Shown here: in pieces, positions 10,939 to 40,198 of the stretch | Numbering within the stretch: the first letter of the stretch is position 1 | Layout of the letters: each line of letters opens with the position of its first letter | Source: Fimbriiglobus sp. | GTDB lineage: Bacteria > Planctomycetota > Planctomycetia > Gemmatales > Gemmataceae | Length of the DNA stretch: 40,962 nucleotides | NCBI GenBank assembly: GCA_025351325.1 | Contig: JANXWE010000045.1 | Coordinates: 1-40,962 of the forward strand | Direction of reading: 5' to 3' | Notes under the pieces: model-generated | Database searches by the model: none | Told to the model about the DNA's origin: nothing | The model's input: only the letters and a program-made list of their open reading frames with translations | Position numbers and translations under genes: made by a program

Positions 10939-11220
10939 TCGGCGGGTTCCGACCGGCTGCGTCGGCGAATCGGACTGGCACAATGTTACCAATCGTGGGC
11001 GGAGTACCGACGACTGGAGGGAATCGGGCACGGCTGGCGAATTCAATTCGTGGCGAGGCGGTGAAGAATCGGCCGAAAATCTGCCCAGAGCGAAGTGATG
11101 CGTGAAGATACGCTTCGTGCCGCTCCGACTTGCAGCTGATTCGAGAGAATGCGTTTCCCACCGCATACTCCCGACAGCGCGCGACCCGTACGATTCGCAC
11201 CATCGGGATGGATTCTCACC

Positions 11221-14200
11221 ATGAATCGAACCAACAGCCCCATTCGGCGGACGCTCGAGCAATTGGAAGCCCGTGAAAATCCGAGTGTCACTTGGGCCGG
11301 CGAATCGTTCGAGGGGATCGCGGCTCCGAAACTGCCGGCGGACTGGGCCACTTGGAGCAACGACGGCGAACCGCAATTCATCACTTCCAAACTCACGGCC
11401 GTCTCGGGCACCAACTCGCTGGCATCGCTCGGTTCAGCATCCAATTCTTCCCGGTTTTGGAATCGAGCGACTTACCCGAGCGACTACGGTGCTGCACTGT
11501 CATTGCGGGCTGGCCCTGCCATCCGCATGGACGTGCTGGCGCGCGGTTCACAACTCGATAGCACCCATCCGAGCTACCTCGCGGCTGAGTTCACTGGAAC
11601 ACGGAGTTTGGAACTGCTCGAAGTGCGTGACGGTGTCGCACGCTCGTTGGGTCGGGTGAACTCGGTCGACTCGGTCAATGGTAAATGGCTCCGCATCGCC
11701 TTGAAACCGGTCGGTGAGTGGGCGGGCGTATCCGTCCAACGCATCGATACCGGGGCGTACCTAAAGTCCGACGGCACTTGGCGAGCGGCGGAAATCGAAG
11801 CGATCCGCGTCAAAACGACGTTGCCGGCCAGGGAAGGGGCCATCGGCTTGGGACGCCGGGCCGGCGCATCGGGCATGGCGTTCGTCGATGATTTCGCCGT
11901 GCTGGCCCCACCGGGCGTCAACGAAGCATTCGACAGTACAGTCCCTTCGAAGCTCCCGGAAAACTGGAACAGTTGGAGTAACAATCAGCCGAAAGCATTC
12001 ACCCTCGGCACCGGCCACGTGCTGTCACCGACGCAGGCACTGACATCCAACGGCATGAGCACGACGCAGAGCCGGGCGTGGCTCGGCAGTGCCATCACCG
12101 CAGACGCCAGTGCCAGTGTGAGTGTGTACGCCGACAACCTGATTCCGAGTGGCGTGTTCTTGCGTGGAAGTCAACTCGATACCGCCCACCCGACGTATTA
12201 CTCACTGACTATGACGCGCGGGCTGAAGGTGCAACTGAATCGTGTGGTCGATGGTACGGAAACCGCCTTGGCGACGATCCGTTCCAGCGAATATGTCAGC
12301 GGCAAATGGATCCGGTTGACCCTGGTTGCCGAGGGGAACAAGCTCCGGGCGTTGGTGGTTCGCACCGACACCAATCAGTGGCTCAACGCCGACGGAATTT
12401 GGGGTGCCAACCCCGAACAGGCGCTCGAAGTCAGCGACTCCCAGATTGTGACCGGTGGCTTCGTCGGCGTCGAACGCAGCCATCTCGCGGCCGGGCCGGT
12501 CTGGTTCGACGACTTCGCCATCCGCCCCGCCAAGTCCGTCGGCCCCGTGCTCACACTGTCGGCTTCGCAATCGGGGTCACTGTTTGCCGGGGTCGTTTCG
12601 TTCCTCGCCTCGACTCCCCCCGGAGCGGTGAATCGGCTCGAATTCCGCCGTGAGGGGATCGTCCGCGCGAACGAAATCGGTTCGAGTCTTCGGTACACCC
12701 TCGACACCGGCACGCTGACGAACGGCCGACACGAAGTGACCGCCCGAGCCATCGACCGCGATGGCAACGCCAGTACGCAAACGATCAGTTTCAACGTCTT
12801 CAACGAGAATGCGCAAACTCCGTCCCGTCCGACGGGGGTGAAGAAGTACACGCACATCCGGTTGGCGCAATTGGCCTACTCCGGGAACCCGGTCGGGACG
12901 TTTGAGCTGAATCTCGCCAAGAACAGCCTCGATTTGATTATTCCGAACCCACGCTATTTGCAGGCGTTCGAGACTGCTTCCCCGGATACGACCAAAGTCG
13001 TTTACACCAATCTTTCGAACGTCTACGGCGAACTCATCACCGATTGGAACGCCTACGCCGATGCCAATCGCACCTCCCGCGAGCAGGCGTTTTACCACGT
13101 CAGCCAGGCGACCAATTTCACCGGGGCCAGTCCGTCGTCGCTGCCGGTGAATTACTTATGGAACGTGCAACGGATCGATGTCGTCGGCACATCGACCGAT
13201 CTGACGGTGGAAGCTCGTGGTACTCGTGAAAAAGGCGTGCCGCTCGGGGGTGCCGGGACATCCCTGGTCGTGGGCTACGTGGAACGGTTCCGCGAGTTGA
13301 ATTTCAAATTCACGAAACTTGCCCAACCGGGCTGGAGCGGCGTGTTGGAATACGTCTCGGCCGTGAATGCCGATGGTAGCCCAGCCGCTTGGAAGACGCT
13401 CTCGGTGCTCCAAGATGGAACGGAGGGCTTCCGTACAAACGGAGCCATCACGTTCGATCCGCCGGCCGATTGGGTGTCGTCGAAAGTGGCGGGCGGTACT
13501 CAACAATTGCATCAACTGCGCATCCGCACGCTGAGTGGTTCGGCATCGCAAGCTCCGGAAGCGAAGAGCATTTTGGGACGCGATTACGTCCAAGCCAACG
13601 GTCGGGCAGCAGGGGTGATCCCGGCCTTCGATTCCGAAGCGGATGCGAACCGCGACGGTTACCTGAGCGATGCGGAATATAAGAACCGACGCTCGGGGTT
13701 CGATGCCCGTTTCGAGTATGAATCGCGGCTCTTCTACCCATACTACGGCCAAATGCGCTTCATGGTGAACCCGACTTCAATTGCCGTCAAACAGTGGTTC
13801 ACGGAATACAACGTTCGCGGCCTGCAACAAAATCCACTGGCGGACGGTCTGTTCATCGACAACTCGAACGGCAAAATCCCATTCAAGGGTACACACGTGA
13901 AAGAGTCGATTGACTCGTTCACGCAAGACTACGCCGGTCTCGTGGCGTTGATCACGAAAGCCATCGCCCCGAAGTGGACGGTGTCGAACACGTCCGGTTC
14001 GTTTGCGGAAGGCGACCCGGTAGCGAAAGCGTCGACGGCCGTACTCGAAGAATTTGTACTGCGTCCCAACAACAGCAATTGGGCCCAGGTGCGGGATGTT
14101 GCCAATCTTGTCACCGAGCGTTTGAACGCCGACAACCCATCGCCGTATGTCATTCTCGATAGCCATTCGGGCAGCTTGGCGACGAATGACCCGCGCTCGC

Positions 14201-14613
14201 AGATGGGCACGCTGGCGTATTACTACTTGCTCGCCGACCCGGACAAAACTTTCCTGATGTTCAACGGTGGCCAAGCTCCCGCCGTGGCTTGGAACCAAGT
14301 CTGGGTGCCGGCCGCGACGGTCGACGTGGGCAAGCCGGTCGGTGCCTACACCACTTGGGCCACCGGGTTGGATCCGGAAGACGCGCGGCTCACATTCAAA
14401 GTGTTGCGCCGGGAATATCAGAACGCCATCACCGTCTTCAAACCGCTGTCGTACAAGCTTGCCACGGGCACCGGAACATCCTCCGACGCGACGGCGACCA
14501 CGCACCCTCTTGGTGGCAATTTCCGTCGATTGAATGCTGATGGTTCGCTCGGCTCGGTTGTCACCAGCATCACCCTTCGCGGCGGGGAAGGGGCCGTCTT
14601 GATGCGGGCGTAG
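11221..14613 (+). CDS. large secreted protein, paralogue A: two LamG-like domains, Ig-like domain, GH-like barrel with EF-hand
   Basis: 1130 residues. The N-terminus RRTLEQLEARENPS matches a motif seen on many large planctomycete surface proteins and replaces a classic signal peptide. Two similar beta-sandwich repeats follow (about 15-235 and 240-435), both with an RGSQLDxxHPxY segment and a DDFA(V/I) end, resembling concanavalin/LamG folds. An Ig-like domain spans about 440-535. The C-terminal 590 residues start IRLAQLAYSG and look like a TIM barrel of the putative glycoside hydrolase type (LITDWNAYAD, REQAFYH, DGLFIDNSNG with D880). The barrel is interrupted by a beta-rich insert and a canonical EF-hand loop at 808-819 (DANRDGYLSDAE). 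A paralogue lies at 32229-35519. Hydrolase activity is inferred, not shown. The 3' end overlaps hemW by 44 bp. Confidence 0.75.
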   Translation: MNRTNSPIRRTLEQLEARENPSVTWAGESFEGIAAPKLPADWATWSNDGEPQFITSKLTAVSGTNSLASLGSASNSSRFWNRATYPSDYGAALSLRAGPAIRMDVLARGSQLDSTHPSYLAAEFTGTRSLELLEVRDGVARSLGRVNSVDSVNGKWLRIALKPVGEWAGVSVQRIDTGAYLKSDGTWRAAEIEAIRVKTTLPAREGAIGLGRRAGASGMAFVDDFAVLAPPGVNEAFDSTVPSKLPENWNSWSNNQPKAFTLGTGHVLSPTQALTSNGMSTTQSRAWLGSAITADASASVSVYADNLIPSGVFLRGSQLDTAHPTYYSLTMTRGLKVQLNRVVDGTETALATIRSSEYVSGKWIRLTLVAEGNKLRALVVRTDTNQWLNADGIWGANPEQALEVSDSQIVTGGFVGVERSHLAAGPVWFDDFAIRPAKSVGPVLTLSASQSGSLFAGVVSFLASTPPGAVNRLEFRREGIVRANEIGSSLRYTLDTGTLTNGRHEVTARAIDRDGNASTQTISFNVFNENAQTPSRPTGVKKYTHIRLAQLAYSGNPVGTFELNLAKNSLDLIIPNPRYLQAFETASPDTTKVVYTNLSNVYGELITDWNAYADANRTSREQAFYHVSQATNFTGASPSSLPVNYLWNVQRIDVVGTSTDLTVEARGTREKGVPLGGAGTSLVVGYVERFRELNFKFTKLAQPGWSGVLEYVSAVNADGSPAAWKTLSVLQDGTEGFRTNGAITFDPPADWVSSKVAGGTQQLHQLRIRTLSGSASQAPEAKSILGRDYVQANGRAAGVIPAFDSEADANRDGYLSDAEYKNRRSGFDARFEYESRLFYPYYGQMRFMVNPTSIAVKQWFTEYNVRGLQQNPLADGLFIDNSNGKIPFKGTHVKESIDSFTQDYAGLVALITKAIAPKWTVSNTSGSFAEGDPVAKASTAVLEEFVLRPNNSNWAQVRDVANLVTERLNADNPSPYVILDSHSGSLATNDPRSQMGTLAYYYLLADPDKTFLMFNGGQAPAVAWNQVWVPAATVDVGKPVGAYTTWATGLDPEDARLTFKVLRREYQNAITVFKPLSYKLATGTGTSSDATATTHPLGGNFRRLNADGSLGSVVTSITLRGGEGAVLMRA

Positions 14614-32228: not shown

Positions 32229-35200
32229 TCACCGCACTTTCGCCAGCACCATGCCTTCGCCATTGCGCAAACTCACTTGCCGGACGACCGGACCGAGCGT
32301 TCCGTCATTCCGCACGACGCGGTAGGCCCCGTCGAGGTTGTGCACTGTTGCGGTGTTATCCGCGATGGTACCGCTGGTGCCCTTCGTGTATGCCAAGGGC
32401 TTGTATAGGATCAGAGCATTGGTGTATTGCCGCTGATAAACTTTGTATTGCAGAGTACGATTGGACGGGTCTTGACCACTTGCAATTTCGGTGAACGCAC
32501 CCGTCGGCCGGCCGACGTTGTAATTGATGGCGTCGGTCCAGTGGTGTGTCCAAGTCGTGCCCGGTTCCTTGCCGCCGTTGATCATCAGGAACGATTTGTC
32601 CGGGTCGGCCAGCATGTAATACATGGCCAACGTCGATGTCATCGCACGGGGGTCGGTCAGCGGGACTTGCGTCGTCAAGCTGTCCAAAATCTCGTAGGCT
32701 TTGCCACCGTTCAAGGTGCGCCGGTACGCGACTGTTGCCGCGAGATCACTGAACATGACGTGGTTCGCCTGGAGCGGTCGCAAGGCGAATTCTTCCAAGT
32801 ACGTCACGCCGTTCTTGATCTGCGACTTCACCGATTCGCCGCCCCCGGCCGTATTCGAGATGATCCACTTCGAACCGAGCGAGCGGTTGATGGCCCCGAG
32901 CAAATCACCGTATTGGTCGGAGTACTTGTCCACCGATTCGTACACCGATTTCGGATCGATCGGCAAGCGGCCGGTGGAGTTGTCGACGAAGAAACCGCTG
33001 ATCTTCGGTTGCGATACGAGAATACGGCGGTGGTAATCGATTGCCCAATTGCGGAACTCGACAGAGCCGACGTTCGTGGCGAACCGGTTAGGCCCGTAGT
33101 ACGGGAACGTCAACCGCGATTCGTACACGAAGCGTGCGTCGAATCCGCTGCGGCGCCGGGCGTATTCGGCGTCGTTGAGGTAGCCATCGCCGTCGCGGTC
33201 GGCCTTGGAATCGAACGCGGGAATCGTACCGACATTGGCTGTCTGCTGAACGTAATCACGGCCGAGAATGGACTTGAATACTGGGGCCGTTCCACCGACA
33301 GCCGTCGCAACGCGGACATAGTAAAAGCGGGCGCTGCCATTGATGCTGGCGGTGGCCCAATCCTTCGGCGGGTCGAATACTATCTGCCCGGAGCGCCGTA
33401 GGCCCCCGGTGGAGTCGCTGAGGGCCGTCAATCGGCTCCAGCGTGTCGGGCTGCCATTGGCATCCACGGCGCTCACATATTCCAGGTCACCACGCCAGTT
33501 TCCAGACGCCCCGCTTTGCAAGTTCAGATTCAGTTCGCGGAATTTCTCGGTGTAGCCAACGACCACCGATTCCCCCGCCACGGCGAACGGATTGCTGTTC
33601 GTACCGCTGCGAGCATTGCTGGTGAGGTCGGCCCAATCGGTGACGTTGCTGCCGCGATAGACGGCCCAGAAGTTGTTCACCAGCGTCGCCGAGGCGCTCA
33701 TTCCATAGGCGACCGTCGCTTGATTGAGGTGGTAAAACGCCGCCTCACGGCTGTACTTGTTCCGGTCGGCGTAGTCCAACCAATCGGTCAGTAGGCTCAA
33801 GTACAAGTTGGTCGCATTCGTGTAGATCAACTGCGGCGTATTCGGACTCGCTTTATTGATGTCGTCCAGGAAGCTCAAGTTCGGGATCACGAGATCGATG
33901 CTGTTTTTCAGTAAGTTCAGCTCGTAGCTCGTCATGGGAGTGCCGTAATACGCCAGTGCCGCCACACGGATGTAGTCGTAATGCCGCGGTACTTTCGGCA
34001 ATGCGGGGTCACCAACTGGTATCGGCGTGGGAGTCGGTGTTGGATTAGGTGTCGGAGTGGGTATTGGATTAGGCGTCGGAGTGGGTGTTGGATTAGGCGT
34101 CGGTGTGGGTGTTGGATCTGGAGGTGGGGTCGGAATCGTCGTTGGTTTGTCGGCTTCCGTCGGGATGACTTTGGGCCAGGTCAAGTTGACGGGAACCGCG
34201 TTGACCAAAAAGTTATCGAACAGCAAATCGCCGGCAACCCCCGCCCCCCGTGACAAGCCGGCCAGACCACCGGAACGAATCGAGTCATCGGTGCGGATCA
34301 TCGCCCAAGTCGGAGTGAGTCCCCAATTGCCGGACGCGTCGAGGTATTGGCCAGTGTCCGATCGGGAGATCTGCAACCGAATCTGATTGCCTTTGATCAC
34401 CAGGGAAGCCTGAATCCAAATCCCGCTCTGCCAGCCGACTGTGTTCATGGTTCCGAGCGACTGACTCCGCCCGTTGATCACTTTGAAGAGTTCAATCTCC
34501 AAACCGCGCTTGACGCTGACCCCGTAATACGTCGGCCTCGAGGTGTTCATACTGGAACCCCGAGCGAAGACCCCGGCCGGTGTCAGGCTATCGACGAAAA
34601 TCGACGACGTGACTTGAACATCCACCGGCACGGGTTGCGTCATCCAGATGCGAACTTGGCCAGTGCTGTTCGCCGAAAGATCGAGCGTTTCATCGCCCAG
34701 TGTTGCGACGGTGACAATGCCGCTGCCAACGTACTGCGACCACCCTGTCGGGAGTTTGTCAGCGGCGATCCCGCCGAAACGCTCTTCCCGAATATTAGCA
34801 TTGAGCCCATCGTCTAACGAGCCGATCCGCAGGCTATCGATTGGCACGTCCCCGGCAATTCTCGATGGACGCGCGAAACCCACTTGACCACTGTGCCGGA
34901 TCGTCGAGTCGGTCTTTTCAATGGCCGCAACCGGGGTGCGGCTCCATTTGCCATCGGCTGCAAGGTATTGATTCGTATCGCCACGGTTCAGGTAGACGTG
35001 CAGGTTGTCACCTTCGGCCCGGATCTTCAATGTCACCCACTTGCCACTGAGGTACTCGTTCGATTTCACCGTGGCGAGTACCGTTGTGACTCCGCGATTG
35101 ACCTCGAGCAGTTGGATCTCGGTTCCGCGGATGACGCTGGCCGCATAGTACGTCGGTGCCGAGGTGTTGAGATTCGCCCCGCGCACAAGAAGGTGAACGG

Positions 35201-35519
35201 GAACGGTCGTTCCCAGAAAGACGGCCGCAGAGACTTCGAGATCGGCGGAATAATCGGTATTCAGCCAAGCTCGACCACTGGCCACACTTGATCCCGACGA
35301 GACCAAACGACCTTGATCGCCAAGTCCTGCTCCGGCCCCGTCGATTTGAAAGATGGGTTTCGGAGTTTCCGAGTTCCATTGTTTCCAGCCGCCGGGCAAA
35401 CCGCTGGCGGTACTGCGTTGGAACGGTTCCACGAGCCACGAACCCGCCGAGGGAAGTTCGCGCGGCTCCAGCCGCTCGACTGTCAACGGAATCGGACGGG
35501 TCGGTTGCTGCGATGCCAT
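32229..35519 (-). CDS. large secreted protein, paralogue B: two LamG-like domains, TP-repeat linker, GH-like barrel with EF-hand
   Basis: 1096 residues, clearly homologous to the protein at 11221-14613. The N-terminus PLTVERLEPRELPSAG holds the same L-E-x-R-E-x-P-S motif. Two LamG-like repeats (about 25-240 and 250-455) share RGxxxNTSxPTYY and GKWxxL features. A linker of TP and NP units (about 470-525) replaces the Ig-like domain of paralogue A. The barrel-like end has YIRVAALAYYG, LLTDWLDYADRNKYSREAAF, the EF-hand loop DRDGDGYLNDAE and GFFVDNSTGRLP. A glycosidase-like role on exopolysaccharide is inferred. GGAAGG precedes ATG 35519 by 7 nt, and a good promoter lies at 35588-35615. Confidence 0.75.
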   Translation of the reverse strand: MASQQPTRPIPLTVERLEPRELPSAGSWLVEPFQRSTASGLPGGWKQWNSETPKPIFQIDGAGAGLGDQGRLVSSGSSVASGRAWLNTDYSADLEVSAAVFLGTTVPVHLLVRGANLNTSAPTYYAASVIRGTEIQLLEVNRGVTTVLATVKSNEYLSGKWVTLKIRAEGDNLHVYLNRGDTNQYLAADGKWSRTPVAAIEKTDSTIRHSGQVGFARPSRIAGDVPIDSLRIGSLDDGLNANIREERFGGIAADKLPTGWSQYVGSGIVTVATLGDETLDLSANSTGQVRIWMTQPVPVDVQVTSSIFVDSLTPAGVFARGSSMNTSRPTYYGVSVKRGLEIELFKVINGRSQSLGTMNTVGWQSGIWIQASLVIKGNQIRLQISRSDTGQYLDASGNWGLTPTWAMIRTDDSIRSGGLAGLSRGAGVAGDLLFDNFLVNAVPVNLTWPKVIPTEADKPTTIPTPPPDPTPTPTPNPTPTPTPNPIPTPTPNPTPTPTPIPVGDPALPKVPRHYDYIRVAALAYYGTPMTSYELNLLKNSIDLVIPNLSFLDDINKASPNTPQLIYTNATNLYLSLLTDWLDYADRNKYSREAAFYHLNQATVAYGMSASATLVNNFWAVYRGSNVTDWADLTSNARSGTNSNPFAVAGESVVVGYTEKFRELNLNLQSGASGNWRGDLEYVSAVDANGSPTRWSRLTALSDSTGGLRRSGQIVFDPPKDWATASINGSARFYYVRVATAVGGTAPVFKSILGRDYVQQTANVGTIPAFDSKADRDGDGYLNDAEYARRRSGFDARFVYESRLTFPYYGPNRFATNVGSVEFRNWAIDYHRRILVSQPKISGFFVDNSTGRLPIDPKSVYESVDKYSDQYGDLLGAINRSLGSKWIISNTAGGGESVKSQIKNGVTYLEEFALRPLQANHVMFSDLAATVAYRRTLNGGKAYEILDSLTTQVPLTDPRAMTSTLAMYYMLADPDKSFLMINGGKEPGTTWTHHWTDAINYNVGRPTGAFTEIASGQDPSNRTLQYKVYQRQYTNALILYKPLAYTKGTSGTIADNTATVHNLDGAYRVVRNDGTLGPVVRQVSLRNGEGMVLAKVR
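34030..34125. repeat. 24-bp tandem repeat encoding the TP-rich linker
   Basis: Three near-identical 24-bp units (34030-34053, 34054-34077, 34078-34101) and a diverged fourth (34102-34125). On the minus strand each encodes eight residues of the TPTPNPTP kind. The whole-codon unit length means copy number can change without frameshift. Confidence 0.85.
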
Positions 35520-35673: not shown

Positions 35674-35708
35674 AAAAAAAAGGAACCGTTCGCGGGGCGA
35701 ACGGTTCC
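35674..35708 (-). terminator. intrinsic terminator of the HtrA pair
   Basis: On the minus strand a perfect 12-bp stem (35697-35708 with 35682-35693) has a 3-nt loop and is followed by eight T residues (35674-35681). It lies 22 bp past the stop of the degenerate HtrA gene. Confidence 0.94.
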
Positions 35709-35730: not shown

Positions 35731-36807
35731 CTATTTTTCGACCGGCTTCGAAGCTGTTTTGGGCAATTTGGGCGCTGGGTATTTGCCGTCTTTCAGGTCG
35801 ATCAAAACCGGGAGGATCACCTCGGCCGGAAGCGCCCAAGTTTCGACACGTCCGGCCCGGGCGATGTTGATCCCGACCACGCGCCCTTCGAGATCGACCA
35901 ACGGCCCGCCGCAGTCTTTAGCTTGCAAAATCATGTCGTGTTGGATCACTTGCGGGAATCCCGTCCGGCGACCACTGAGGAGGCCCCCGCTGAGGTTCAT
36001 CATCTCATCTTTGTTATTTTCTTTGATCGTATCGACCCGCGAGCTCAAGGTCACCGCAAAGCTCAGTTCGTCGAATTCGTCGGAATCCTTGGCTTTCCGT
36101 TTCACTTTCACGGCGATTTTATCACCCGGCTTGTACAGATCGAGAATTTCCGGCAAATGCTCGCGGTTCTTGACTTTGATCCCGGCTACTTCCAGCATCA
36201 CGTCGCCCGCTTTCAGCCCCGCTTTCGCCGCTGCAGCTCCTTTGACCACTTCCGTCACGATGACTTCGTCCTTGGATCGGATGTCATACTGGATGCCGAT
36301 GTAGCCCTTGTTGGCGTTCTCGATCATCGATTCCGGCCCGAAGAGCTTCCGTGCCGCCGCACTGATGATTCCCACCGCGACCGGCTCCGAAGAGATCCCC
36401 GTCGCGGCGACAAAGTTACCCGGCTCCGCAATCTTGGCACTCACAAACTTAACTTGGGGCAGATCTTCGGCGGATATTTTCAGTAAAGCCAAATCGGATG
36501 CTTTGTGGTAGCCGACATATTCCGCGTCGTATTCGGTACCATCACGGAAGACCACTTTGATCGACGAACTGCGGAGTTCGCTCCCTTTTGTGAGAATGTA
36601 GCCCGTCTTGTCCACCACCGTGCCCAGTGCGGCATCTTTGCCATCGACTTGAATCCGTGCGGTGGAATCGGCCGCATCACTCGCAGCCGATTCAAAGAGT
36701 TTCGGCAACAGCCGCTTGCCCCGGTCGGGGGTCGTTCCGGCTGCGAACACCAATGGGGTGCCGAGTAGAAGGCTCGCGAGTATCAAAACAGGACGGAAGT
36801 GGCTCAT
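35731..36807 (-). CDS. inactive HtrA-like protein with PDZ domain nested in the protease fold
   Basis: 358 residues with signal peptide (LILASLLLGTPLVFAAG). The N-terminal half follows trypsin-like HtrA: GTVVDKTGYILTKGSEL (47-78), ASDLALLKI (D105), and VGIISAAAR (145-153). A PDZ domain then occupies about 165-258 (GYIGIQYD, AAAAKAGLKAGDVMLEVAGI). The protease fold resumes at 283 with FPQVIQHDMILQAKDCGGPLVD and ALPAEV. Aligned to the neighbour, the catalytic His is S76 and the Ser is C299, so ordinary serine protease activity is unlikely; D105 remains. It is 57 bp downstream of an intact HtrA and probably co-transcribed. A binding or adaptor role is inferred. Confidence 0.82.
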   Translation of the reverse strand: MSHFRPVLILASLLLGTPLVFAAGTTPDRGKRLLPKLFESAASDAADSTARIQVDGKDAALGTVVDKTGYILTKGSELRSSSIKVVFRDGTEYDAEYVGYHKASDLALLKISAEDLPQVKFVSAKIAEPGNFVAATGISSEPVAVGIISAAARKLFGPESMIENANKGYIGIQYDIRSKDEVIVTEVVKGAAAAKAGLKAGDVMLEVAGIKVKNREHLPEILDLYKPGDKIAVKVKRKAKDSDEFDELSFAVTLSSRVDTIKENNKDEMMNLSGGLLSGRRTGFPQVIQHDMILQAKDCGGPLVDLEGRVVGINIARAGRVETWALPAEVILPVLIDLKDGKYPAPKLPKTASKPVEK

Positions 36808-36864
36808 GGTGATTCGACCTACGTATGGATAAATATCGACACGGTTAGCACTTGCAGCGAGTGC

Positions 36865-37944
36865 TTAGTTCTTGCGACTCGGCCGCTCCGGTTTCTTGAC
36901 ACCACCTAGCTTCACGTCGACACTCACCGTTTCGCCGTCCCGACGAATTAGCAATTTCACTTTGTCGTCTGGTTCGTAGGACGACATCATTTCGGTGATA
37001 TCGCTCGCCGTTTTCACCTTGTTACCGTTGAATTTGAGAATCACATCACCCACTTCGAGGTCGGCTCTCGCCGCTGCACTCGACTCGGCCACTTCAGCGA
37101 TCACCGCTCCGGGTTTCGAAGAATCTTCGTATTTGACGCCGAGTACTGCCTCCGTCTTCTTGCCGATCGAGTCACCCCGTACCAACCGATCCCATTCGTT
37201 GCGGAACTTGTCGACCGGAACGTGCATGTTCGATTCCAGCAAAAATGGGTTGATCTGACTGTGGATCCCGATGACTTTCCCGGCGAGGTCGAACAACGGC
37301 CCGCCGCTGTCCCCCCCGACGAGCGTGCAGTCGGACAGCAAGAGTCGATTCTTCGACATCTCTTCGGTTTTGGTGTTCACCCGCCCCGTACGAACGGGTG
37401 GCGGACGATCCTGTTTCGGCCCGCCGGGGTGACCCATCGACACAACCCACTGGTATTGTTTGAGATCGGCCGACTTGCCCATTTCCGCGACGGGCCACTT
37501 GCCCTCTTTGGCACCCGGCCATGTGGCCGTTTTTGGGGGCGTATCGGTAATCCGAGCCATCCCACTATCAGCGAACGTGTTGATTCCGAGCGATTCGCCT
37601 TTCACAAACGTCCCGTCGGACAGTACGAACATGATCGGCTGACGGGGCTTACCAATCACGTGCGCCGCGGTGAGGACGAGGCCATCTTCAGAAACGATCA
37701 CACCGCTACCCGCTCCCATGCCAACGAGGAGACCGACGGTCGTGGGGAGCGACTGTTTATTGACGTCTTTCACACGAGTCTGCAACGCTTTCATCTCCGC
37801 CACCGACTCCGGCGAGGTGATGCGAGCGATATCCCATTTGATCGTGTCGAGCGGTTTAGAAATATCTTCAGCGAATGCAGTGGCTGCGAACAGGAATAAG
37901 GCGATGGTGAGGGCACCCAGCCGAAAGGGGCGTTCGAGAATCAT
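36865..37944 (-). CDS. HtrA/DegP-like serine protease with one PDZ domain
   Basis: 359 residues. Signal peptide LTIALFLFAATAFAED directs it to the periplasm or outside. The complete catalytic triad is visible: H95 in VLTAAHVIG, D126 in NTFADSGMA, and S213 in GGDSGGPLFD. One PDZ domain follows at about 265-345 (AVIAEVAESSAAARADLEVGDVILKF in part), in the normal C-terminal position. Such proteases degrade or remodel misfolded envelope proteins. GAGGAG lies before ATG 37944. The inactive paralogue follows 57 bp downstream. Confidence 0.9.
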   Translation of the reverse strand: MILERPFRLGALTIALFLFAATAFAEDISKPLDTIKWDIARITSPESVAEMKALQTRVKDVNKQSLPTTVGLLVGMGAGSGVIVSEDGLVLTAAHVIGKPRQPIMFVLSDGTFVKGESLGINTFADSGMARITDTPPKTATWPGAKEGKWPVAEMGKSADLKQYQWVVSMGHPGGPKQDRPPPVRTGRVNTKTEEMSKNRLLLSDCTLVGGDSGGPLFDLAGKVIGIHSQINPFLLESNMHVPVDKFRNEWDRLVRGDSIGKKTEAVLGVKYEDSSKPGAVIAEVAESSAAARADLEVGDVILKFNGNKVKTASDITEMMSSYEPDDKVKLLIRRDGETVSVDVKLGGVKKPERPSRKN

Positions 37945-38202: not shown

Positions 38203-38964
38203 TCACACCTGCGATTCGAGCAAATGCTTCAGTTTCCGGATTTCCGGCTCCACGGGGAACGGATTGTCCGGCAGATCCCGAATATCGACCGACAAAGCCC
38301 GGTCGTAGCGGCAGCGGTCGAGTTGGCTAATAATCCGGCCGTATTCGATCATCCCCTGGCCGATCCGGAGCTGGAATTGCTCCGGTTTGTTCCCGGAATC
38401 GCGCAGCCGCACGTGCTTCACGAACGGGTAGAGCGGGTCGCAGCCGTCTTCTTTGAGGTTCCGGGTGGCGAAGTCACTCGGATCCAGGGTCAGGCCCAAA
38501 CCGGGGACACGCCGGCACAGGTCGGCTGCATAAGACACATCCTCGGTCACCGTCCCGATGCGGGTCTCCACGGTCAGAATGACCCCTTCGATTTCCGCCA
38601 ACTTTGCCCAAACTTTCAGCCGGGTGACTTCCGTCTCCGCCTCGCACCCGAGTGGGGCTGCCGTCACCGTCACCAGTGGTACGGCCATCGTGCGGGCCAA
38701 TCGGCAGACGGCACGCAGTTGGTGCCGAGTGGCCTCGCTGTCGAACTCGGCGAATTGCAAGTGGAATGCCGCAAACGCCACGTTGGCCGTTTTCAGCTGC
38801 GCTGCGGCCTTGGCGACGTCGGCGAGTACTGCGGACGGGCGTAGGTGCGACCCCGATTCGTGAATGGCCAAGTCGGCTTTGGCGAATTGCATTTCCCGGA
38901 TCACCCGCAACGCATCGGGTAAATTCATCCGGCTGAAACAGAGTGTCGAGCAGGCCACGTACAT
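38203..38964 (-). CDS. sugar phosphate isomerase/epimerase-like TIM barrel protein
   Basis: 253 residues of the xylose-isomerase-like/AP-endonuclease-2 barrel. Seen are MYVACSTLCFSRMNLPDAL, the strand FAKADLAIHESG, VILTVETRI (barrel glutamate), LGLTLDPSDFATRN, HVRLRDS and a late GMIEYGRIISQLD, all matching family landmarks for metal ligands (E, D, H, E). Members isomerise or epimerise sugars and inositols. ATG 38964 has GGAGGA 8 nt upstream, which is better than an in-frame ATG at 39072. A hairpin ACCTCACT/AGTGAGGT (38163-38189) lies after it without a T tract on this strand. Confidence 0.82.
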   Translation of the reverse strand: MYVACSTLCFSRMNLPDALRVIREMQFAKADLAIHESGSHLRPSAVLADVAKAAAQLKTANVAFAAFHLQFAEFDSEATRHQLRAVCRLARTMAVPLVTVTAAPLGCEAETEVTRLKVWAKLAEIEGVILTVETRIGTVTEDVSYAADLCRRVPGLGLTLDPSDFATRNLKEDGCDPLYPFVKHVRLRDSGNKPEQFQLRIGQGMIEYGRIISQLDRCRYDRALSVDIRDLPDNPFPVEPEIRKLKHLLESQV

Positions 38965-39171
38965 CGCGGTGTCCTCCAAACGGCGCGTGGGGCAACGCAG
39001 TGAAATCGGAACGGCGAGCGAGCTTCCCCCAAGCTGAACCGAGCGGATACCCGCCAGTCTCAAATCCTGCAAGGAGGAATCGGCTCACTTCTCTGAAAAG
39101 TCCGCTTGTTTCCGAGTGGGTGCATTCGCTATAGCCCGCAGCTTCCGGTCGAGCTGAGCTGTGGGGGAGTT

Positions 39172-39543
39172 ATGCAAACTGCACGGTCTTGGGAAACGTC
39201 CCTCGGGGCCATCGAAATCGCCGTCGGTGACTGTCTGAAAGCCCTGGATGACTATGAAGCCTCCTTCCGAACGGCGTACATAGAAGGTGGTGGGCCAGTC
39301 GAAGCGCTGCGACTCCACGTTCCATTAGATACCGTCGATGACGCTTGGGATCGGCAATTGGCCGGGGCCGATCGCTCCGCCGATGACGTCGAACAATTGC
39401 TGGCCGAACAAGAAATCGTCTGGAATCGCTGGCAAGAACTCCTGGCCACTTGGCGGCACTCGCTAGAACAGCCCCCCGTGTTGGAACCGGAGACGGACCA
39501 TGCCTTCTTTCGCCGTGATCCTCCCTGCCGCCGGGCAATCTAG
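39172..39543 (+). CDS. small helical protein of unknown function overlapping ispD
   Basis: 123 residues, acidic, predicted helical (AVGDCLKALDDYEASFRTAY, DRSADDVEQLLAEQEIVWNR). GGGGGAG lies directly upstream of ATG 39172, supporting translation. The last 44 bp overlap the start of ispD in another frame, which implies co-translation with that gene. No family is recognised and no membrane or signal segment is seen. The C-terminal 15 residues, read from the overlap, may carry little constraint. Confidence 0.65.
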   Translation: MQTARSWETSLGAIEIAVGDCLKALDDYEASFRTAYIEGGGPVEALRLHVPLDTVDDAWDRQLAGADRSADDVEQLLAEQEIVWNRWQELLATWRHSLEQPPVLEPETDHAFFRRDPPCRRAI

Positions 39544-40198
39544 CCGTTACGGCGGCACCGAAAAGAAACCCTTTCTCCAGTTGAACGGCACGCCTATCTG
39601 GCAACGGTCTGTCGAGCTATTCTGCCACCGACCAGACGTCGCCAAGGTCAGCATCGTCGTCTCACCGGTCGACCGCGAACGGTTTGAGGCTCGTTTCGGT
39701 GCCATTTGCAAAACCCTCGCTGTGGAGGTCGTCAGCGGCGGGGCGGAACGGTTCGAATCGGTGGCGAATGCACTGGCGACTATTCCCGACACCGTCGATT
39801 TCGTCGCTGTCCACGATGCCGTGAGACCGTTGCTCACCCAGCGCGGAATCGACGACGTTTTCGCAATGGCTGTTCAAAACGGGGCCGCGATGCTCGGCGC
39901 GCCGGTCGTCGACACCATCAAGCGGGTCGAGAGTGCGTGGAACCGCATCGTCGAAACGGTACCCCGAGCGGACTTGTGGGCTGCCCAGACGCCACAAGTC
40001 TTCCGCCGCGATTGGCTGGTGGAGGCTTACGCCTGGCGACACGTTTTCGACGGGCCGATCACCGACGACGCCCAACTGATTGAAGCCCAAGGTCACGCGG
40101 TTGTGATGGTGCCGAGTACGCCGACGAACTTCAAAATCACCACACCGTGGGACTTTGAATTGGCGGAACTGATACTCCGAGCACGGATCACCTTGTAA
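39500..40198 (+). CDS. ispD: 2-C-methyl-D-erythritol 4-phosphate cytidylyltransferase
   Basis: 232 residues, the usual length. It joins CTP and MEP to form CDP-ME in the non-mevalonate isoprenoid pathway. Motifs: the nucleotide-binding VILPAAGQSSRYGG with KKPFLQLNG, SGGAERFESVANAL, VHDAVRPL, GAPVVDTIK, AAQTPQVFRRDWL, and TDDAQLIEAQGH with VPSTPTNFKITTPWDF. The ATG lies 44 bp inside the preceding gene. ispF does not follow, as it does in some bacteria; instead the stop codon overlaps the promoter of tRNA-Arg. Confidence 0.96.
   Translation: MPSFAVILPAAGQSSRYGGTEKKPFLQLNGTPIWQRSVELFCHRPDVAKVSIVVSPVDRERFEARFGAICKTLAVEVVSGGAERFESVANALATIPDTVDFVAVHDAVRPLLTQRGIDDVFAMAVQNGAAMLGAPVVDTIKRVESAWNRIVETVPRADLWAAQTPQVFRRDWLVEAYAWRHVFDGPITDDAQLIEAQGHAVVMVPSTPTNFKITTPWDFELAELILRARITL

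Follow-up and report, generated by a model that had tools for sequence, protein, structure and literature searches.

A catalytically inactive HtrA-fold protein with a nested PDZ domain accompanies an active HtrA protease in Planctomycetota: a candidate split HtrA system

Described HtrA systems and their partners

HtrA proteases are textbook allosteric machines in which sensing and cutting are combined in one chain, and trans-subunit signalling is therefore hard to dissect. In ordinary HtrAs, loop L3 receives the signal of the PDZ domain and relays it through a conserved arginine to the LD loop of the neighbouring subunit. The canonical HtrA/Deg proteins (DegP, DegQ, DegS, AlgW and HtrA1) carry the PDZ domain after the protease domain, with catalysis and sensing in the same polypeptide. 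The L3 arginine acts in trans between HtrA subunits, and Arg302 of HtrA1 has been equated with Arg187 of DegP and Arg178 of DegS (PMC5666011).

Partnerships between related HtrA chains have been described. MamO activates MamE without catalysis, and has a degenerate triad and a residue other than Gly at position 193 (PMC4794232). In Arabidopsis, the HtrA paralogues Deg5 and Deg8 cooperate, and no activity was detected for one of the two (PMC3640471). A regulatory PDZ domain inserted into a protease domain is known from the S41 proteases Prc, CtpA and CtpB (PMC6686036), which are active and have an unrelated fold. According to a survey of microbial PDZ proteins, such proteins are abundant in planctomycetes, and the terms 'nested' and 'inserted' are absent from its main text (PMC6411480). 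In the literature searched, no HtrA precedent was found for a PDZ domain inserted into a trypsin fold; the only examples came from S41 proteases and engineering.

In this study, two adjoining genes, hereafter A and B, were analysed in a window of 40,962 nucleotides from Fimbriiglobus sp. (contig JANXWE010000045.1), and their homologues were compared in the family Gemmataceae, as defined by organism names, and in the phylum. The nearest working parallel is MamE/MamO, which, like A and B, consists of an active HtrA and a catalytically dead HtrA-fold partner. MamO differs in having a TauE-like transporter domain, a di-His metal site and a part in magnetosome formation, whereas B has a nested PDZ domain, lacks a membrane domain and frequently occurs as a fusion with A. 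The PDZ insertion of B resembles that of the S41 proteases, but B matches S1C/Trypsin_2 profiles and superposes on HtrA. Deg5, the less active Arabidopsis paralogue, has an intact triad and no PDZ domain, in contrast to B, in which the triad is lost and a PDZ domain is present.

An active protease and a pseudoprotease with a nested PDZ domain

The features of the locus are as follows.

36865 to 37944, minus strand: gene A, secreted HtrA-type serine protease of 359 aa, with a signal peptide, a Trypsin_2 domain, H95/D126/S213 and a PDZ domain at residues 267-346
35731 to 36807, minus strand: gene B, secreted HtrA-fold pseudoprotease of 358 aa, with S76/D105/C299 at the triad positions and a PDZ domain nested in loop L3
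36346 to 36642, minus strand: N-terminal part of the B trypsin fold, about residues 56-154, ending at VGIISAAAR153 (HMMER and VIA alignments)
36082 to 36306, minus strand: nested PDZ domain of B, about residues 168-242 (PF13180 at 168-242, PF00595, PF17820; AF2 model)
35770 to 35955, minus strand: C-terminal part of the B trypsin fold, about residues 285-346, containing VIQHDMILQAKDC299GGP and INIARAGR
35682 to 35708, minus strand: intrinsic terminator, a 12-pair stem followed by T8, about 22 nt past the end of B

Signal peptides are evident from the sequence at the start of both proteins. Gene A has the features of the HtrA (S1C) family, namely a trypsin-like domain with an H-D-S triad and a PDZ domain C-terminal to the protease domain (PF13180 at 267-346 by Pfam). 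Among A homologues, the triad His is kept in 65 of 66 and the Asp and Ser in all 66, and the sole homologue without the His is a truncated ORF. One HtrA feature, an L3 loop with the conserved sensor arginine, is lacking in A, in which L3 is short and the register of the alignment approximate; this arginine is a regulatory trait and not one that defines the family. Most A proteins have the C-terminal PDZ domain. Some A partners are longer, at about 640 aa (loci L135, 1318-3231, L141, L150 and L167). The A protein of L135 has a PPC (pre-peptidase C-terminal) domain in place of the C-terminal PDZ domain, and its B retains the nested PDZ domain; those of L141, L150 and L167 resemble it in length, and that of L167 also in sequence.

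Gene B shares with the canonical HtrA/Deg proteins the trypsin fold (Z about 25), the type of PDZ domain and the L3 arginine, but its PDZ domain lies inside the protease domain. Pfam placed Trypsin_2 at residues 62-174 and PDZ_2 at 168-242. By HMMER, residues 55-155 and 286-340 of B match the DegP-type protease domain and residues 173-239 match the PDZ domain that lies downstream of it, so that the order of N-part, C-part and PDZ in DegP-type chains becomes N-part, PDZ and C-part in B; this lack of colinearity indicates that the PDZ domain is nested. An AlphaFold2 model of B was built from 67 sequences (pLDDT 90.2, pTM 0.84). With the PDZ domain skipped, its residues 37..344 superpose on the protease domain of AlgW over 183 aligned residues (rmsd 1.9 Å, Z 25.2; VIA-align), and hence the trypsin fold of B, as modelled, closes around the PDZ domain. 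The Foldseek TM-scores of B were low because the nested PDZ domain disrupts the alignment order, and the superposition was resolved by VIA-align. A match was present in 78 of 95 family genomes, and in most of these the nested order was recovered at full length, as it was across the phylum, which argues against chance; an assembly artefact or a frameshift was ruled out, since the relatives are colinear with B throughout the phylum. No match was found on plasmids. The original prediction, made from the window alone, had assigned H95, D126 and S213 to A and S76 and C299 to the His and Ser positions of B, and had placed the PDZ domain between VGIISAAAR and the remainder of the protease fold. A script run on the translations returned the same residues, and Pfam, the HMMER order, the predicted structure and the AlgW superposition agree on the nesting; the search in other Planctomycetes that it proposed found the same domain order across the phylum. 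A PDZ domain with no protease fold enclosing it, the outcome that would have spoken against the original prediction, is not what the model shows.

The loss of catalysis in B extends to its homologues. At the position of His57, Ser occurs in 126, Asn in 4 and Asp in 1 of 131 sequences, and His in none. The triad Asp is invariant, the nucleophile position holds Cys in 120 of 131 sequences and Gln, Met, Val, Ile or Thr in the other 11, and the residue at the oxyanion-hole position Gly193 is other than Gly in 130 of 131. B thus has the trypsin-like fold of the HtrA (S1C) family without its H-D-S triad or a PDZ domain after the protease domain, and it does not pair a His base with a Cys nucleophile as chymotrypsin-like (3C-like) cysteine proteases do, the base position being Ser. 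The degenerate triad and the non-Gly residue at 193 that characterise MamO (PMC4794232) are both found in B. The di-His metal site of MamO (H148 beside the catalytic D149, and H263) is not; Ser104 precedes D105 in the motif AS[D]L. No Pfam match to a TauE-like membrane domain was found in B, which ends soon past the protease fold. B is a pseudoprotease of the HtrA fold, and is filed neither as an HtrA protease nor as MamO. A short turn, IARAGR, stands in place of loop L2 in B.

Compared with the nearest relative, B has a dN/dS of about 0.12 and A one of 0.13; at a dS of about 1.4, these values are rough. Judged by its sequence, B is a conserved pseudoprotease under purifying selection. The view of B as a degenerating duplicate was ruled out, with B kept in 78 of 95 genomes and a dN/dS about equal to that of A.

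Co-occurrence, gene order and fusion

The gap of 57 nt between A and B (36808..36864, minus strand) contains no terminator-like site on the minus strand, and a strong terminator lies past B; together these make A and B look like a closed two-gene unit. Both genes were found in 78 of the 95 family genomes, neither in 16 and A only in 1 (Fisher p 3e-17, shared ancestry ignored), and in the lone A-only genome A sits 285 bases from the contig end. At 70 family loci, A is directly upstream of B on the same strand in 66, in one frame with B in 1 and missing in 3, including one locus cut by a contig end. Among the best 80 of 349 loci from named genomes, which overlap the 70 family loci so that the two counts are not additive, A and B are separate genes in 69 and one ORF in 7, and no A is nearby in 4 (one at a contig end). 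In the phylum as a whole, a B match with E ≤ 1e-30 was found in 71 of 392 genomes. An A gene that does not adjoin B usually lies at another site of the genome (L126/L128/L073, L068 and L222-L224); A is absent from the locus L159.

Clustering of the neighbours of these loci found no other widely shared operon partner, and the largest cluster consisted of shadow ORFs of A and B and similar frames. Sugar-isomerase-like and IspD-like genes lie upstream of the pair (38203-40198), and a similar isomerase/IspD neighbourhood occurs in about 12 loci, all from Gemmataceae. The window also encodes two paralogous secreted-looking proteins of 1096 and 1154 aa (32229-35519, minus strand, and 11149-14613, plus strand). 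At the N-terminus, both have a LEPRE(L/N)P-like motif together with two similar modules in tandem. The protein at 32229-35519 has a Pro-Thr repeat linker and is directly downstream of B, past the terminator.

Repeated fusion of adjoining genes is classic evidence that their products act together. Single ORFs with A followed by B were found in Thermoguttaceae/Pirellulales-type genomes (L145, L148, L153, L162, L166 and L168), and about 20 further A-B fusions in many other families. In these six loci A is without its own PDZ domain, leaving the nested one of B as the only one, and the full-length B matches in fusions span the PDZ domain. Two PDZ domains stand in a row between the halves of B in L216 (2736-5756) and L219 (2653-5547), and four in L217 (2-3181), which carries five overall; the proteins of this group with multiple nested PDZ domains have about 965-1060 residues. 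Fusions arose or were lost several times: on the B tree, the fused state requires 6 changes, of which at least 2 are forced by well-supported branches. An AlphaFold2 model of the L168 fusion, for which the alignment comprised the fused rows and A fragments, contains two trypsin folds, and superposition of the A half on HtrA1 gave Z 25.1 and 2.6 Å; at a pTM of 0.59, the mutual placing of the halves is unreliable. Some long frames were not counted as fusions. In L115 (1-2004), A and B share one open frame in which an internal Met and a signal peptide are kept, and the locus was not accepted as a clean fusion because a stop codon may have been lost recently or misread in sequencing. The long ORFs of L056, L059 and L060 were ruled out as upstream read-through in another frame, with A as a separate overlapping ORF.

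The proposal of a pseudoprotease that is co-expressed with the protease and acts on it finds strong support in comparison, namely in the near-perfect co-occurrence, the A-then-B order, the terminator only after B and the repeated fusions in one reading frame; that B physically interacts with A and regulates it is what we infer below.

Loop L3 and a putative division of sensing and cutting

The PDZ insert of B starts after VGIISAAAR153 and stops before VIQHD, that is, in loop L3. R153 aligns with the Arg of GIVSAKGR in DegP-type chains (HMMER) and with the L3 Arg of DegP, HtrA1 and DegS; from the known HtrA1 sequence, we take it to correspond to HtrA1 Arg302. Of the 131 B sequences, 118 have the L3 Arg, and a script located it in 15 of 16 canonical HtrAs of related genomes, the mis-registered sixteenth reading GIISGKSR. 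Only 7 of 96 A homologues have it, at a register that is approximate owing to their shortened L3, and in A of the window Glu occupies this position in an alignment of equally approximate register. The Gly-to-Ser spacing is 21 in 77 of the 96 A homologues, compared with about 29-33. Gln occupies the position equivalent to DegP Q200 in 118 of 131 B sequences and in 29 of 96 A homologues. The retention of Arg and Gln in B and their scarcity in A mean that the sensing residues have survived in the dead subunit and have largely disappeared from its active partner.

We consider it somewhat probable that A and B constitute a split, two-subunit secreted HtrA in which A cuts, and B senses and gates A. 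A retains the catalytic triad and would do the cutting; B, with the trypsin fold kept and catalysis lost, would be a regulatory subunit with the PDZ domain spliced into L3. B would stand next to A in an assembly, or be joined to it covalently where the two are naturally fused. The PDZ domain of B may bind an exposed C-terminus or an unfolded segment in the periplasm, R153 in L3 of B would then order the active site of A, and B may in addition pass the substrate on to A. The fold and nesting (in the model), the lost catalytic residues, the purifying selection, the obligate pairing, the operon order, the fusions and the opposite fates of the L3 Arg in the two proteins are what the analysis shows; the contact between A and B, the hetero-oligomer, the type of ligand and the direction of regulation are all inferred parts of this proposal. 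More tentatively, a split HtrA of this kind may occur throughout Planctomycetota, the PDZ domain of the dead twin, in 1 to 4 copies, being wired into L3 and influencing, in trans, the partner's active site in an obligate hetero-oligomer or a fusion. Several observations weigh against a split HtrA: most A proteins keep a C-terminal PDZ domain and might regulate themselves, A is not beside B in the few lineages listed above and is absent from the L159 locus, the fusion model leaves the placing of the halves unsettled, and the register at the L3 Arg position of A is approximate. The model also does not account for the invariant K74 of B, for R317 and R320, each found in 130 of 131 sequences, or for the near-invariant Cys.

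The main rival, which we judge rather unlikely, is that B acts as a substrate adaptor or chaperone whose PDZ domain or PDZ array holds substrates near A without allostery. A PDZ domain in B, with two to four in a row in some fusions, would suit binding over signalling, A can be without a PDZ domain, and the fusions tether A and B. An adaptor role does not account for the position of the PDZ domain, precisely in L3 and behind a sensor Arg that has been retained, for the loss of L3 and the Arg from A, or for the selection that maintains the entire trypsin fold.

A role for B as an inhibitor, or as a scaffold for assembly, is improbable; B would then hold A in an inactive form, or fix the oligomeric state of A, up to the onset of a stress signal. 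The co-occurrence, the gene order and the fusions are compatible with any obligate partner, including one of this type, but the sequence gives no pointer to inhibition over activation, and the retained activating Arg and Q289 favour activation.

We attach very little weight to a repurposed MamO-like role, in which the dead active-site region of B would bind a metal or other ligand and A would be influenced only indirectly: the precedent of MamO, which activates MamE with a degenerate triad and non-Gly193 (PMC4794232), and the unexplained conservation of K74, D105, R317 and R320 would suit it, but B has no di-His site, a Ser precedes D105, there is no TauE membrane domain and the B core contains only three His. 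An unusual cysteine protease with C299 and D105, the thiol activity suggested as an alternative in the original prediction, is just as improbable and is not supported by the homologues: the Cys is kept in 68 of 69 family and 120 of 131 phylum sequences, yet the general base is Ser, Asn or Asp in 131 of 131, position 193 is non-Gly in 130 of 131, the Cys itself is Gln, Met, Val, Ile or Thr in 11, and H290, nine residues ahead of the Cys, varies (His in 108 and Thr in 19 of 131) and offers no dependable substitute base. In three of the 69 family B homologues (L068, L085 and L086) the general base is His and the triad reads H-D-C; if any thiol activity has remained, these three would be the likeliest to show it.

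B adds to the HtrA fold an architecture, a PDZ domain within the trypsin fold, that had no HtrA precedent in the literature searched. In the A/B pair, evolution seems to have split sensing from cutting and then to have rejoined them repeatedly, thereby offering a natural system in which the sensor and catalytic subunits can be mutated independently. A split HtrA would explain a large, uncharacterised and conserved envelope protease pair of Planctomycetota, a phylum whose envelope biology is unusual.
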